Assembly: GCA_021798635.1 (NCBI GenBank)
Contig: JAJZGH010000163.1
Location: forward strand, 1-11,214
Direction of reading: 5' to 3'
Length of the DNA: 11,214 bases
Source: Planctomycetota bacterium
GTDB taxonomy: Bacteria > Planctomycetota > Phycisphaerae > WQYP01
Shown: positions 4,461 through 11,214 of the stretch, piece by piece
Layout: each line of letters begins with the position of its first letter
Numbering within the stretch: position 1 is the first letter of the stretch
Notes under the pieces: generated by a model
Databases searched by the model: none
Seen by the model: the letters and a program-made list of their open reading frames with translations, nothing else
Told to the model about the DNA's origin: nothing
Program-made: the position numbers and the translations under genes

Positions 4461-4547
4461 GGAGGCGTGGCAGAGCGGTTTAACGCGCCGGTTTTGAAAA
4501 CCGGTGTGGGCGCAAGTCCACCGGGGGTTCGAATCCCTCCGCCTCCG
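4461..4547 (+). tRNA. tRNA-Ser, anticodon UGA
   Basis: An 87-nt class II tRNA that folds completely. The acceptor stem pairs GGAGGCG (4461-4467) with CGCCTCC (4540-4546), with discriminator G at 4547. The anticodon stem CCGGT/ACCGG (4488-4492, 4500-4504) encloses the loop TTTGAAA, giving anticodon TGA (4495-4497), which reads UCA and probably other UCN serine codons. A long variable arm with a GTGG/CCAC stem (4506-4509, 4518-4521) is the serine-type identity feature. The T arm is GGGGG/CCCTC around TTCGAAT (4523-4539). The CCA end is not encoded (the gene is followed by TTT). No second copy of the tRNA 3' end, which would suggest an integrated element, is visible in the window. Confidence 0.97.
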
Positions 4548-7083: not shown

Positions 7084-7112
7084 TTTGCAGCCAAATTAGC
7101 CCGGCGTATAAT
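7084..7112 (+). promoter_or_regulatory. Candidate promoter pointing toward the RHS toxin module
   Basis: A perfect TATAAT at 7107-7112 is preceded by TTTGCA (7084-7089, 17-bp spacing, four of six matches) or TTGCAG (7085-7090, 16-bp spacing). Transcription would start near 7119 and run through the repeat-rich leader into the open frame at 7438. Confidence 0.4.
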
Positions 7113-7231
7113 CCACTTTCGCATGAGGTAGAAAGGAACACTCGCTTGGTCGCAACGGACGACATGCTTTTGGAATCCACGCTTCCCGGCCAACGCCGCC
7201 AGCGGCGACATCGTACCGCAGACATCCTGCG

Positions 7232-7247
7232 TGCCGCTGCAGCGGCA
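7232..7247. repeat. Perfect 16-bp palindrome
   Basis: TGCCGCTG is followed directly by its reverse complement CAGCGGCA. It abuts the first heptamer array, and no T run follows on either strand. Confidence 0.85.
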
Positions 7248-7282
7248 ATCACGGATCAAAGACCACGGATCACGGACCGATT
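7248..7282. repeat. Degenerate heptamer array A1 (ATCACGG type)
   Basis: Five consecutive 7-base units in exact phase: ATCACGG, ATCAAAG, ACCACGG, ATCACGG, ACCGATT. The last unit is only weakly related. The first and fourth are identical. Confidence 0.75.
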
Positions 7283-7285
7283 ACA

Positions 7286-7313
7286 ATGATCAATGATCGC
7301 TGATCGCTGATCA
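7286..7313. repeat. Heptamer array A2 (MTGATCR type)
   Basis: Four consecutive 7-base units: ATGATCA, ATGATCG, CTGATCG, CTGATCA. Each contains a GATC, so GATC recurs at exactly 7-bp spacing. It lies three bases after array A1 but has a different unit. Confidence 0.85.
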
Positions 7314-7328
7314 AAAACATGGCGCGGG

Positions 7329-7348
7329 AATCGGGCGGTCGCCCGATT
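7329..7348. repeat. Inverted repeat with 9-bp perfect stem
   Basis: AATCGGGCG (7329-7337) and CGCCCGATT (7340-7348) are separated by GT. It would form a strong hairpin in RNA or a cruciform in DNA. It is followed by AGAGC, not a T run, so it is not a typical intrinsic terminator. Confidence 0.85.
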
Positions 7349-7361
7349 AGAGCAGGCGAGC

Positions 7362-7382
7362 AGTGGAGAGTTGAAAGTAGAG
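7362..7382. repeat. Short heptamer array B (AGTNGAR type)
   Basis: Three consecutive units: AGTGGAG, AGTTGAA, AGTAGAG. It is short enough that chance cannot be excluded on its own, but it lies in the same spacer as arrays A1 and A2 with the same 7-base period. Confidence 0.5.
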
Positions 7383-7437
7383 GAAATAAGGCTGGAGCGA
7401 AAGGATGGTTTTGTCGACAAGGTGCGAGCGATAGAAC

Positions 7438-8949
7438 ATGGTTGCCAAGACTGAAACAATCTCCGAAAGCCAATTCCGCTGGCGCTTTCTGCGCTCGGGG
7501 CTGCGGCATTTCCGCGCCGACATCACGCACCGCGCAGCGCTTCCGCCCCATGCCAGATGCACGATGCGAGATGCTGAATGCTGGCGCAGCCCTGCTGGCG
7601 GTAAGAAGCAATACTATCTCGATCAGGAAATGGCGCTGTACCTTCTGGGCGGCGGCAATAATGGAAGGTATTATGACGCCGCCACGGGGCGGTTCTTAAG
7701 TGAGGATCCGACCAAAGAGGCCGGCGGTGACGCCAACCTCTTCCGCTACGCTGGCAACAATCCGATCAACAATCTGGATCCCAGCGGGCATAGTCTTGTG
7801 ACCGACCCGCCCAAGCAAGTTTATCATCCGGTGCAAAACCAGCCGACGCAGCAGCATAACGCAAATGTGCATTCCAAGGTACCGGCAGCTGGTCACGGAG
7901 CGGCGGTGCATGGCGCAACTGGGACACAGGGGCAATCCAAGGCGGCGGGCGCGACCGGAGATGGCGGTATAGGAAAATCACAGCCATTGCCCAAAGGCAT
8001 CCAGCACAGCCTGCTGCACAAGCCGCAGTTGGGACCCCCGCCGACGGATCCCGCGGCCCGGAAGATATATGACGCAGAGTTAGCCCACCAGCAGGCCCAG
8101 GCCAAAATCTCGCCCCCATTGATAACCGGCACCGCGGCGACGCCGGGTAATCCATCGCCGATTGCCGCAGCTATTTCGGGGGCACTTCAAGGGGCCGCCG
8201 GGGTGATGTGGAAATTTAACAATGCAATGACGGCGGGCCTGTGGTCCAAAGTCCAGCCGGTGAACCCGAACCCCAGTGCCGATAAGCCCACCCTCAGCAA
8301 CGCCATCTCGGACCAATTTGTGGGCGTGGCCGCCGCTTTCTTCCCCATTGGCGGTGCCGAAGAAAGCGGCGCGCGTGATATCGCCAACGTGGGAGATGAT
8401 GTCGGCAAGCAGTTGGTGCATTCGGATGTGGTTCCGGGGTCAGCGGCGGGTGCGAAAACGGCGGCGGAGCAGACCGCGAAATCCACCTCCGAAGAATTGC
8501 CGGGGGCGGCTGCGGAGCATGAGGCAACACAGGCGGCGAAAGAGGCCAAAACCGCTACGAAAACCCCCGCAGAGGCAGAAACACCGGCAAAGGGGGTTGA
8601 CGAAACCCGGCCGCAGCATGGCAGGGCTGAACATGATGCCACGGCCTTCAATGAGGCCAAGGCTTGGCAAAAGGATCCAAAAACCGTGCAGGTCCGGTTT
8701 AATCAGAACCTTGTCGACGCAAATGGAAAAGAGATAAAGGGCTTCCGGCCGGACGTGCAACGGATTCGGACCACTCCCGGCGGAAAAAAAGTCGTTGATG
8801 TAATTGAGGTGCAAAGCCCGGGACAGACCAGGGAGTTTATGATTGCTAAGATTGCAGCGATCAAGAAAGCGCTGGGGTCGCAGGCGGGGAACGTGACCTG
8901 GATGCGTCGGGTAACTGGGGCCACACGCGAGGGAGGTCCACTGCATTGA
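7438..8949 (+). CDS. RHS tip module 1: truncated RHS core fused to a variable C-terminal toxin with nuclease-like end
   Basis: A 503-residue frame from ATG 7438, just after an in-frame stop at 7432. Residues 1-53 do not resemble RHS and include a translated heptamer array. Residues 54-118 are the end of an RHS repeat-associated core: GGKKQYYLDQE, NNGRYYDAATGRFLSEDP and NNPINNLDPSGH. Residues 119-404 are a variable Gly/Ala/Pro-rich region with a hydrophobic stretch near 242-306. The last 100 residues look like a compact domain: GFRPDVQRI, then VVDVIEVQS, then a helix and a final strand. Asp439 with Glu457-x-Gln459 fits a PD-(D/E)xK-type nuclease, where ExQ is a known variant of ExK; this is inference. 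Family knowledge says such tips are toxins released from a long RHS shell. Here the shell is missing upstream and no Shine-Dalgarno precedes the ATG, so this may be a silent, recombination-ready tip. The stop overlaps the next gene by TTGA. Confidence 0.7.
   Translation: MVAKTETISESQFRWRFLRSGLRHFRADITHRAALPPHARCTMRDAECWRSPAGGKKQYYLDQEMALYLLGGGNNGRYYDAATGRFLSEDPTKEAGGDANLFRYAGNNPINNLDPSGHSLVTDPPKQVYHPVQNQPTQQHNANVHSKVPAAGHGAAVHGATGTQGQSKAAGATGDGGIGKSQPLPKGIQHSLLHKPQLGPPPTDPAARKIYDAELAHQQAQAKISPPLITGTAATPGNPSPIAAAISGALQGAAGVMWKFNNAMTAGLWSKVQPVNPNPSADKPTLSNAISDQFVGVAAAFFPIGGAEESGARDIANVGDDVGKQLVHSDVVPGSAAGAKTAAEQTAKSTSEELPGAAAEHEATQAAKEAKTATKTPAEAETPAKGVDETRPQHGRAEHDATAFNEAKAWQKDPKTVQVRFNQNLVDANGKEIKGFRPDVQRIRTTPGGKKVVDVIEVQSPGQTREFMIAKIAAIKKALGSQAGNVTWMRRVTGATREGGPLH
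7550..7584. repeat. Heptamer array C (ATGCNNR type)
   Basis: Five consecutive units in exact phase: ATGCCAG, ATGCACG, ATGCGAG, ATGCTGA, ATGCTGG. The array ends about ten bases before the point where similarity to the core of RHS module 2 begins (about 7594), so it sits at the truncation boundary. It is read through by the frame starting at 7438. Confidence 0.85.
7786..7879 (+). repeat. 94-bp near-identical block at core-tip junction, copy 1
   Basis: This matches 10429-10522 with a single mismatch (C at 7829 versus G at 10472). It encodes GHSLVTDPPKQVYH and the following VQNQPTQQHNANVHSK (His-Pro versus His-Arg is the only amino-acid change). It begins at the end of the conserved core (DPSGH), and both sides are much less similar. 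Confidence 0.95.
8931..8937 (+). promoter_or_regulatory. Ribosome-binding site for the TTG start of the immunity gene
   Basis: GGGAGGT lies inside the last codons of the RHS tip, eight bases before TTG 8946. It supports a genuine, translationally coupled TTG start. No other plausible start exists before residue 30 of the downstream frame. Confidence 0.75.
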
Positions 8950-9539
8950 CAAATATTGATCCCAAAAAACTTGAAGGCCGCCTAAAACATCGGAGCTACG
9001 AGGAGATTGAAAATGAGCTTCGAACGCTACAATCGGATGATCTCGTTGCCTTTCTGGACAGTAAGGCAACGAGGGTTGCGGATACGGCCGTGTCGCTACT
9101 TGAGCGCCGGAGGGAGGTCGCGTTAGTAACCCGGTCACTAATCACCAATCGCCTTCGTACGGCCCTTGGAAGAGTGCGAGGCATCTTCGTCCTCAGCGGT
9201 TTTGGAGTCTCCGCTCCAGAAACAGTGGAGGCGTATCTGCACCTACTTAGTGACCGGAGTGCCGACGTAGTCTCTGAAGCGCTCTTTGGCCTCGTGTTCA
9301 TGCGGCGGCGGGACCTGCTGCCGATCTTGCGCGAGCACCTCGAACATTTACCCGCGGGCAGCCCGCGATGCGAGAACTTCAGCGAGGCCATCAGGGCACT
9401 TGAAGCGAACGATCCGTCGCTTTTCGCTCCGGGCTTTCTTGACGCTGGCAATGTTTGGCGACTCAATGAGCCGGCACCTCCATACACTGCCGAAGGGAAG
9501 CTGGAAATGGACGGAAATGGGGGAAAAACGGATGGTTAG
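8946..9539 (+). CDS. Candidate immunity protein for RHS tip 1, HEAT-like helical repeats
   Basis: A 197-residue, soluble, mostly helical protein starting at TTG 8946, overlapping the toxin stop by four bases (TTGA). I do not recognise a named family. Residues about 16-60 (a paired-helix pattern with VAFLDSKATRVADTAVSLLERRRE) and 90-132 (VEAYLHLLSDRSADVVSEALFGLVFMRRRDLLPILREHLEHL) resemble HEAT or Armadillo-type repeats, a scaffold used by many immunity proteins. No signal peptide or membrane segment is seen, fitting a cytoplasmic antitoxin. The position directly after a polymorphic toxin tip, the coupling and the small size are the main reasons for the call; direct binding is not shown. The C-terminal tail from about 175 is Pro/Gly-rich and runs into the second RHS module, whose frame opens eight bases before this stop, so the native 3' end may have been altered by the recombination that placed module 2 here. 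Confidence 0.6.
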   Translation: MTNIDPKKLEGRLKHRSYEEIENELRTLQSDDLVAFLDSKATRVADTAVSLLERRREVALVTRSLITNRLRTALGRVRGIFVLSGFGVSAPETVEAYLHLLSDRSADVVSEALFGLVFMRRRDLLPILREHLEHLPAGSPRCENFSEAIRALEANDPSLFAPGFLDAGNVWRLNEPAPPYTAEGKLEMDGNGGKTDG

Positions 9540-11214
9540 GGCTGTTGTATTTTTCAATGAAGCTAACCCCGGTGCCGCGGTCGGCACGATCGACTGCGAC
9601 CCGGCCGGGAATAGATTCACTGAAAACAGTGGCACAGCCGTTACCACTTATACCTATGACCCCGCCAATCGTTTAACCCTGGCCAATGCCAATGGTGCTG
9701 TGACCACGTATGTCAATGATGCCGCAGGCAATCGCATTGCGCAGGTGACACCCACAGAAACAACGTATTATTCCTGGGACGCGGCGGGCAATATGGCCAC
9801 AGCCGAGCCAGCGGCGGGGATCGTGACCTTAACCTACAACGCCGATCAGCAGAGGGCCGTTAAGCAAAGTACCGATGGCGCGGTTACAGGATTCCTGTAT
9901 GATTACAAACGCCTGCTATGCGAAACCGACACCGTTGGCGGAGCGATCAGCCAGACGTATGCCAGCGATACCACCGATGAATTCGGGGATTTAATCGGTG
10001 AGGATGGGCAATACATTCATCAATACGACGCCCAGGCGAACACCAATGCCCTCCTCGATGAAACCGGCACGGTGGCAGCACAGTACAAGTACCTGGCTTT
10101 TGGACAAGTCAGTGCCGTGAGTATTGATGGCGGCCCGTGGACCGCAGAGGACTGGGAAAGCCTGCCGTTGGACTTTACCAGCAACATGTTGGCGGGCGGC
10201 AAAAAGCAATACTACCTGGATCAGGAGATCTCGCTTTACCTGCTGGGCTGTGGCAATAATGGCCGGTATTACGACGCGGCTACGGGGCGGTTCCTTTCGG
10301 AGGATCCAACGAAACAGGATGGAACTTCCAAAGATTCTAACTCCCAACTCCTAACTTCTAACTCCTCGCCAGATATCAATCTGTACTGTTATACCGGTAA
10401 CGATCCGATCAACAATCTCGATCCGAGTGGGCATAGTCTTGTGACCGACCCGCCCAAGCAAGTTTATCATCGGGTGCAAAACCAGCCGACGCAGCAGCAT
10501 AACGCAAATGTGCATTCCAAGGCTCCGGCTACTGGCCACGGGACGACATCTTCGGGTTCGCTGGCGGGTGCCGAGCGAAATATTGTTCGGCAAACTGATG
10601 CGATGCGGGAAGGTGTTTTGAAAGGTGAGGCCCCCAAGGCCGGCCAGTGGCTGGCCGGGCCGGGACCGGATGCCGGTAAGCAGGACACACCCGGCTATAC
10701 CCCGGCGCAACTGCAAATTATTCACACCCACCTTGAGAAGTTATTCCACAATGGGCCGGCGATGCAGTACGTGAACTATGGCAGGAGCCCGGTTTACGAT
10801 AGTTGGATCGCGCAGGCCCAGGGGGCACAGGCAAGGGCCGGCCAGTCATCGGGCTGGCCATTTGCACGTACCCACAACCAGCGGGATATTGCGCAGACTC
10901 CAACGGTTAAGGTGGACGGGGTAAATATGCCCACCAACGTCGCCCAGAATTCAGCGGCGGCGCTCGATGCCGTACAGGCTTCCATCGACCAAGCGATTGC
11001 GGCAGGAGATTTCAAGCGGGCGGAATATCTCTCGGCCCATGAATTCGACGTGCCGACCACGCCGGTACCTCAAGTGAAACTTCCGCCGGGAGCCAGCCTG
11101 ATACCCGGGGCGCAAAACTTAGCCAATATCCACGCGGATTGGATGACGGGGCATTATTCGACCGCGACGCGGAATCTGAAATTAGGCATCGCCAGCCTGG
11201 GAATGGCGATGATC
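9532..11214 (+). CDS. RHS module 2: YD-repeat core fragment with an unrelated C-terminal tip (3' partial)
   Basis: One frame is open without interruption from ATG 9532 to the window end, 561 codons, with no stop in view. The ATG lies within the immunity gene (8-bp overlap) and GGGGGA is seven bases upstream, so translation could start here, although full RHS proteins are far longer and the module may be a displaced fragment. Residues 15-135 carry YD-type repeats (TTYTYDPANRL, TTYVNDAAGNRI, TTYYSWDAAGNM). Residues 162-259 form the core end (GNNGRYYDAATGRFLSEDP), interrupted by a heptamer-encoded insert (about 262-280), then NLYCYTGNDPINNLDPSGH (283-301). The shared 94-bp junction follows, then a tip (about 335-561) unlike that of module 1, with Ala/Gln-rich helical segments and motifs such as YTPAQLQIIHTHLEKLF. 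I do not recognise the tip, and its effector end lies beyond the window. An immunity gene is expected downstream. Confidence 0.75.
   Translation, partial: MVRAVVFFNEANPGAAVGTIDCDPAGNRFTENSGTAVTTYTYDPANRLTLANANGAVTTYVNDAAGNRIAQVTPTETTYYSWDAAGNMATAEPAAGIVTLTYNADQQRAVKQSTDGAVTGFLYDYKRLLCETDTVGGAISQTYASDTTDEFGDLIGEDGQYIHQYDAQANTNALLDETGTVAAQYKYLAFGQVSAVSIDGGPWTAEDWESLPLDFTSNMLAGGKKQYYLDQEISLYLLGCGNNGRYYDAATGRFLSEDPTKQDGTSKDSNSQLLTSNSSPDINLYCYTGNDPINNLDPSGHSLVTDPPKQVYHRVQNQPTQQHNANVHSKAPATGHGTTSSGSLAGAERNIVRQTDAMREGVLKGEAPKAGQWLAGPGPDAGKQDTPGYTPAQLQIIHTHLEKLFHNGPAMQYVNYGRSPVYDSWIAQAQGAQARAGQSSGWPFARTHNQRDIAQTPTVKVDGVNMPTNVAQNSAAALDAVQASIDQAIAAGDFKRAEYLSAHEFDVPTTPVPQVKLPPGASLIPGAQNLANIHADWMTGHYSTATRNLKLGIASLGMAMI
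10335..10362. repeat. Heptamer array D (TYCTAAC type) inside RHS core
   Basis: Four consecutive units: TTCTAAC, TCCCAAC, TCCTAAC, TTCTAAC, followed by a decayed fifth (TCCTCGC). It is translated in frame as part of the linker between FLSEDPTK and INLYCYTGN. Module 1 lacks it at the same position. Confidence 0.9.
10429..10522 (+). repeat. 94-bp near-identical block at core-tip junction, copy 2
   Basis: Counterpart of 7786-7879 with one mismatch. Similarity fades within about 25 bp on the tip side, and the two tips then share nothing visible. Confidence 0.95.

Follow-up and report, generated by a model that had tools for sequence, protein, structure and literature searches.

Heptamer arrays in a planctomycete genus as probable arms of dispersed palindromic elements, some in frame within genes

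We analysed an 11,214-base stretch of planctomycete DNA (the window; G+C 55%) that contains genes of the RHS family and five short tandem arrays, A1, A2, B, C, and D, each repeating at seven bases. We conclude, with a probability of about 0.77, that the arrays are arms of dispersed, modular palindromic elements of one Planctomycetota genus, each element comprising a hairpin core and heptamer arms, and that some elements lie in frame within genes. Copies are dispersed with core, arms, and composite order preserved, different arms occur on one and the same core, and copies within genes are in frame and free of stop codons. The elements lie mostly outside genes, with some in frame in RHS and glycosyltransferase genes. 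As we picture it, an element would have a GC-rich core that forms a hairpin, with arrays of 7-base units on its flanks, in many cases inverted; the units would come from a handful of word families.

RESULTS

Hairpin cores carry heptamer arms in a conserved layout

Element copies were compared in two genomes: G001, the closest genome compared (it shares 54% of sampled 31-mers, and one of its contigs covers the ABC-transporter region), and G296, of the same genus. In both, TAACTYC arrays have a characteristic context, in which a hairpin core, AGCGCAGCGCTTCC, is followed by about six bases, TTC, two to five TAACTYC units, and then TCG or a longer pyrimidine-rich run. This core-TTC-(TAACTYC)n layout is found at numerous unlinked loci, with a unit number that differs by locus. 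Ten of 23 close pairs of TAACTYC arrays are inverted ('−+' type), the core not being enclosed by every pair; these contexts and pairs come from the first 30 places in each genome and are weighted to few contigs. Four chosen complete copies (121–148 nt) fold as DNA into long single-strand hairpins, with z-scores of −7.7, −4.7, −13.3, and −5.0.

Different heptamer families are joined in a composite repeat. When up to two mismatches are allowed, a 26-base string comprising the end of a TAACTCC arm and a CCCCTG arm has 12 sites, spread over 10 contigs; these belong to G001 and G296, 2 of 8 genomes of the genus (reversed control, 0). In most of the 13 composite contexts examined, the string comes after the core and arrays of the TGTAACC and GCATNNN families, with the order preserved, and in 10 of the 13 it leads on its right into the flank GTTGTGGTGAAATTGTTC or a variant close to it (L264 and both L270 contexts are without it). 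Where a TAACTCC array is followed by a TGTAACC array on the same strand, the two share a common 7-base register in 13 of 22 cases, versus 1 of 10 in the opposite order; 7 of the 13 in-register cases belong to the composite string (six with its 21-base linker) and are therefore not independent. The composite string and the shared register thus explain how different heptamers come to lie side by side. The preliminary description of the window had argued that common descent could not explain arrays of such different units; fixed family order, shared register, and the presence of different arms on one core largely overturn that argument.

Loci L263–L274 of G001 and G296 also show a dispersed composite repeat, roughly 200 bp long, whose flanks, GTTGTGGTGAAATTGTTC among them, are not arrays.

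The period-7 excess is restricted to some relatives, and its words recur

For G001, we sampled 40 stretches picked by contig number (489,437 bp), with an array score cut of 12 and periods 3–21, and for G296, 20 stretches (246,369 bp). Period 7 accounts for 23 arrays in the G001 sample, with at most 6 at every other period, and for 16 in the G296 sample, with at most 4 at other periods; order-3 Markov nulls give 0.2 and 0 period-7 arrays, respectively. In the same-family genomes, there are 0 period-7 arrays in 155 kb of G302, and 2, versus 3 at period 9, in 141 kb of G312; in 400 kb of G292, of the same phylum, there are 4, versus 5 at period 9 (Markov null 1.0). Period 7 has no dominance in these three genomes, and the excess is therefore not common to all sampled relatives. 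Accordingly, the genome-wide excess anticipated in the preliminary description holds for G001 and G296, where no other period is equally dense, and fails for G302, G312, and G292, which speaks against heptamers as a general property of replication. Exact copies of a 21-base word, CTAACTCCTAACTCCTAACTC, occur in 3 of 294 genomes drawn phylum-wide (G001, G186, and G292). Of 31 relatives, 9 contain it, and overlapping matches per relative range from 0 to 63. For the 14-base form, overlapping matches number 96 in G001 and 339 in G296, and the reversed control gives 0.

Sorted by word, the 23 G001 arrays make up 12 classes and 35 same-class pairs, versus a mean of 0.3 and a maximum of 4 in 2000 trials in which words were drawn at random from the 7-mers of that genome. 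Either common descent or a word-specific mode of origin must lie behind the arrays, and independent slippage is insufficient because the same words recur far above chance. Clusters of adjacent families are few in the samples (17 in G001, 9 in G296), a number that does not allow statistics. Separately, the G001 sample (L021–L060) contains 14 occurrences of the motif CCTGACACCTTTT, at times as inverted pairs or adjoining heptamer arrays.

Stop-free frames of at least 200 residues hold 81% of the bases in the G001 sample, yet 20 of the 23 arrays lie outside them. The arrays inside such frames number 3 of 23 in G001 (one in a doubtful antisense frame), 8 of 16 in G296 (where two genes hold all eight), and none of 4 in G292. 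The clustering at an RHS locus described for the window is real there but does not extend to the G001 sample, in which 1 of 40 contigs is an RHS contig: for 21 of the 23 arrays, the contig has no RHS match (E ≤ 1e-5), and the other 2 arrays are within RHS ORFs. Specificity for RHS genes was therefore rejected; RHS genes are one host and glycosyltransferase genes another.

Arrays C and D are arms within RHS genes

The features of the window that bear on the elements are as follows.

A1, 7248–7282, minus strand: degenerate GATCCGT-type units; 17/28 matches at lag 7; Tandem Repeats Finder score 37
A2, 7286–7313, plus strand: GATCNNT units, the A1 family inverted; 18/21 matches at lag 7; above all 60 shuffles
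7329–7348, no strand assigned: hairpin core AATCGGGCGGTCGCCCGATT of a second dispersed repeat, with numerous copies in G001
Roughly 7329–7403: second dispersed hairpin repeat, about 75 bp, including array B as its tail
B, 7362–7382, minus strand: three AGTNGAR units, a heptamer-like arm adjoining hairpin AATCGGGCGGTCGCCCGATT; 10/14 matches at lag 7
7438–8949, plus strand: RHS ORF of 503 residues with array C in frame; Rhs_assc_core at residues 60–118
7532–7544, no strand assigned: hairpin core GCGCAGCGCTTCC of the element with arm C, read ..AALP..; precedes TAACTCC arms at many loci
C, 7550–7584, plus strand: GATGCNN arm, read PHARCTMRDAE; 20/28 matches at lag 7
9286–11214, plus strand: second RHS ORF, 643 residues, continuing beyond the window end
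10213–10434, plus strand: Rhs_assc_core (TIGR03696), residues 310–383, split by array D
D, 10335–10365, plus strand: TTC followed by TAACTCC CAACTCC TAACTTC TAACTCC; the element's right arm, reading SNSQLLTSNS

Array D splits the Rhs_assc_core of the second RHS ORF and leaves the frame open, the in-frame TAA of its second unit being replaced by CAA. RHS segments between the same anchors, normalised to equal anchor ends, are 74 nt in 5 of 5 segments with D and 29 nt in 4 of 4 without, a difference of 15 codons. A sixth copy of array D, in L011, also has four units.

Array C shows that one core can bear different arms. In particular, an RHS ORF of L011 (WY1.bin60) has, at the homologous position, the same core with a TAACTCC arm in the same frame, the two versions reading SAALPHPSNSQLLTSNS and RAALPPHARCTMRDAE. 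The L011 contig holds another copy, with a GATGC-type arm as in the window.

In the 7438–9539 region, the RHS tail ORF is followed by a short ORF, 8946–9539, that may be an immunity partner. In searches of Pfam and NCBIfam, only the RHS core was matched in the RHS tail, and the short ORF had no match.

Nearly all arms in open frames lack the array stop codon

A perfect TAACTCC array places a stop codon in each frame within 21 bases. We examined 80 distinct arms, each with three or more units, defining an open frame as 100 codons before and 60 codons after, with the tested codon excluded. In open frames, 20 of 21 arms have no stop at the tested codon, which is CAA, TAT, TGG, GAG, or TCG; the sole arm that keeps TAA (L191) lies opposite the end of a glycosyltransferase ORF, in antisense orientation. 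Among the other arms, 51 of 59 keep TAA (Fisher p = 1.6e-11 versus open-frame arms). In a search with a 43-residue element peptide, 10 of the 31 matches listed lie in stop-free open frames of 344–599 residues, and 20 of the 21 others contain stops.

Copies in glycosyltransferase genes lie in long, probably floppy loops

Two glycosyltransferase ORFs of G296 (499 and 585 residues) remain open through element-made inserts of about 480–530 bp, in which the gene frame contains 0 stops and the other five frames contain 3–13 each. A protein database search with insert residues 225–375 matched 13 of 909 candidates, proteins of comparable length; one match is the query itself, and at least one further match (P0008, the 585-residue enzyme) is from the same genome as the query. 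All 13 carry Pfam accessions that we take to be those of glycosyltransferase families.

For the 585-residue enzyme, the loop at issue precedes the sequence LLWLNPH. From 1241 matches, 120 were listed and 49 homologues aligned, with P0033 and P0035 set aside as truncated. The loop has 10 residues in all 26 complete distant proteins (≤56% identity to P0012) and 53–189 residues in the 21 closest aligned homologues (60–100% identity to P0012). What the loop contains at this one site varies among orthologues, and no clean empty site is present among those compared. An AlphaFold2 model of P0012, calculated with 30 sequences, has a mean predicted local distance difference test (pLDDT) score of 85.9, with insert residues 107–149 below 50.

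Two further observations concern these enzymes. L190, L203, and P0024–P0029 carry other in-frame inserts, including TENTENTENTE and an extra 46-residue unit that is repeated in longer variants; these other insert types point to further repeat families. P0006 and the ORF of L191 (G301:C326), recognised by eye, are fusion-like, apparently halves of different glycosyltransferases joined at in-frame repeats, and could be products of recombination or of assembly error.

Support for the individual arrays of the window

The five arrays reported in the preliminary description are present where it placed them, array D having 17/21 matches at lag 7 over the originally reported span, 10335–10362. Self-matches at lags 6 and 8 are 0–7, and at lag 5 array B has 8/16. 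Tandem Repeats Finder (score ≥ 30) calls A1, A2, and D, and not B or C. With a run score of +1 per match and −2 per mismatch, and with 60 dinucleotide shuffles of the window as null, A2 (16) and D (12) stand out, no shuffled period-7 run having reached 11; A1, B, and C are individually non-significant in this test. The support for A1, B, and C is recurrence elsewhere, not single-array score. Specifically, the reverse complement of A1 consists of GATCCGT units and A2 consists of GATCAAT and GATCGCT units, which makes the two a single GATCNNT family in inverted orientation, and locus L026 of G001 holds a mixed array of units of this family. For this pair, the earlier statement that the arrays are mutually unrelated does not stand. 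Array B, not significant alone, resembles the GAGAGTTGAAAGTAGAG tail of dispersed copies, in some of which the period is broken by indels. The window thus holds arm remnants (C and D) and arm clusters (A1/A2 and B), and no complete two-armed copy.

Elsewhere in the window, positions 7085–7235 contain a TATAAT-like promoter and leader, followed by a frame reading VATDDMLLESTLPGQRRQRRHRT, that recur at several further places in G001, and positions 4461–4547 contain a tRNA-Ser (TGA anticodon) adjoining a set of sugar-ABC-transporter genes. An ABC-transporter protein of the window has 99% identity (best segment) with one of the metagenome-assembled genome Planctomycetota bacterium ZJ5.bin40.

DISCUSSION

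Proposed origin and alternative explanations

In the model that we favour, copies of the palindromic elements would have spread through transposition or through recombination of one repeat with another, and their arms would lengthen, shorten, and homogenise in 7-base steps through slippage or gene conversion. Within genes, selection would keep only those copies that are in frame, lie in surface loops, and are without the array stop codon, and such inserts would be translated as floppy loops that leave the protein unbroken.

Several results weigh against this model. The genomes are draft metagenome assemblies. The stretches containing C and A1/A2 fold no better than shuffles (z of −0.05 and −0.28), and only 3 of the 23 G001 arrays, one of them in the doubtful antisense frame, are in long open frames. 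The arms of the stop test are not independent, as several lie in the same gene or go back to a single copy, and 8 of the 59 arms classed outside open frames also have no stop; at least four of these eight (L011, two in L235, and L237) are in open frames that lie nearer an end than the cut allows, and the rest may not be. In the glycosyltransferases, the 10-residue loop is replaced and not merely interrupted, and no target-site duplication is shown. Strict arm peptides are present in 9 of the 21 long-loop enzymes, the other 12 having other repeat-like or plain disordered sequence; the elements thus account for only part of the loop expansion. Finally, no transposase is linked to the elements: relatives that lack the 21-base word have about as many Y1_Tnp matches as those that contain it.

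The last point bears on the most serious alternative, that the elements are classical repetitive extragenic palindromic (REP) sequences or their hairpin-forming doublets (REPINs), moved by REP-associated tyrosine transposases (RAYTs) of the Y1 type, with the heptamers as incidental flanks. This account overlaps the model of modular palindromic elements and adds a named mover, and we consider it a tenable proposal at somewhat less than even odds. The palindromic cores, the ten inverted pairs among 23, reports of REPs in Planctomycetes and within genes in the passages available from PMC3733652, and Y1_Tnp matches in 25 of 31 relatives are consistent with it. The counts themselves argue otherwise: G001, G296, and G312 have 8, 7, and 8 matches, but G307 and G308, which are without the 21-base word, have 9 each. 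Copy number does not track Y1_Tnp genes across the 31 relatives, in a count that pools RAYTs with other Y1 proteins, and a Y1 transposase as mover is thus unsupported by co-occurrence. That each array was instead made in place by independent replication slippage, with a 7-base step preferred through polymerase contact, is improbable. Period 7 does dominate in G001 and G296, unit number differs among loci, and heptanucleotide repeats were the commonest class in most prokaryote genomes of a 2007 survey, with polymerase contact proposed as the reason (as cited in passages of PMC4692102 and PMC4679880). However, same-class word pairs exceed expectation (35 versus 0.3), there is no excess in G302, G312, and G292, cores, flanks, and order are conserved around the arrays, and the five RHS copies of array D are equal in length. 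Word recurrence and conserved flanks led us to reject slippage as the whole story; it may still lengthen arms.

Retention of the arrays as protein or RNA binding sites for regulation, comparable to the TAACTGA repeats of Beggiatoaceae, has equally poor odds. It has a precedent, in the passages seen from PMC4679880, and it would fit the location of 20 of 23 G001 arrays outside long stop-free frames when 81% of bases are inside; it fits less well with several word families, both orientations, and copies in coding loops. Least probable, at only a slight chance, is placement of the arrays inside genes by assembly artefacts at repeats. The draft assemblies and the two fusion-like glycosyltransferases would allow it, as would the end of G001 contig 59 only 33 bases past its divergence from the window at 7235, just before A1. 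Against an artefact, copies that keep the reading frame occur in more than one species; five RHS segments contain them, as do glycosyltransferases whose inserts come in many lengths. A further argument is G292, which has a 7.74 Mb contig and 33 overlapping matches to the 21-base word (though 0 of its 4 sampled arrays are in a long ORF).

Relation to known repeats

Judged by description and not by sequence, the closest known kind appears to be the Rickettsia palindromic elements (RPEs). As described in passages of PMC10969869 and PMC3767692, RPEs are palindromic repeats of about 100–150 bp in several families, some in frame in genes, and orthologues can bear different elements at one site. The planctomycete copies resemble RPEs in being dispersed palindromes of 121–148 nt (fold z of −4.7 to −13.3) and in being inserted into genes with the frame unbroken. 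They differ from RPEs in that their arms consist of heptamers in tandem, from families that are interchangeable, the array stop is altered in gene copies, and the hosts are RHS and glycosyltransferase genes in another phylum.

Other systems share single features. The heptanucleotide simple sequence repeats of Nostoc, Calothrix, and Xanthomonas are, in the passages seen from PMC4692102, intergenic 7-base arrays with several words per genome. The period-7 excess of G001 and G296 is like that of these long simple sequence repeats (LSSRs) and short tandemly repeated repetitive (STRR) sequences, whereas here the arrays are tied to hairpin cores and have coding copies. In passages of PMC4060949, heptanucleotide terms have no match. 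TAACTGA direct repeats of Beggiatoaceae, Cyanobacteria, and Bacteroidetes have an in-array stop, a patchy distribution, and occasional overlap with ORFs (PMC4679880, in part), but comprise a single word, mostly just upstream of start codons, and no palindromic core appears in the passages seen. REPs, bacterial interspersed mosaic elements (BIMEs), and REPINs are short dispersed palindromes, often in opposed orientation, some in genes and some reported in Planctomycetes (PMC3733652, in part); the inverted palindromic pairs are alike, and the heptamer arms distinguish the present elements. Palindromic amphipathic repeat coding elements (PARCELs) are palindromic coding sequences spread among different proteins (passages of PMC2996958), but are tandem amphipathic repeats, mostly of membrane proteins, whereas here the inserts are disordered loops in enzymes, and RHS sequence. 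Among the matches listed for open-access literature joining repeat or palindrome topics with planctomycete topics, no title concerns such elements.

Implications

The elements might further serve as recombination joints within genes, where homologous recombination between copies would swap glycosyltransferase parts or RHS tips in frame. We regard this extension as rather unlikely, though parts could be swapped without loss of frame because the copies are dispersed, are read in one frame, and lie in surface loops. The picture presented by P0006 and L191 fits such swapping, but could equally result from misassembly at repeats. If true, the joints would equip these bacteria with an inherent means of domain shuffling for toxins and surface polysaccharides.

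Our results suggest that the heptamers of one planctomycete genus belong to dispersed, mobile-looking modules. They join two curiosities, the excess of heptanucleotide repeats in some bacteria and the coding palindromes best known from Rickettsia. With arms that have or have not kept their stop codon, and with loops of 10 versus 53–189 residues, the elements offer a test case for how selfish repeats may turn into protein.

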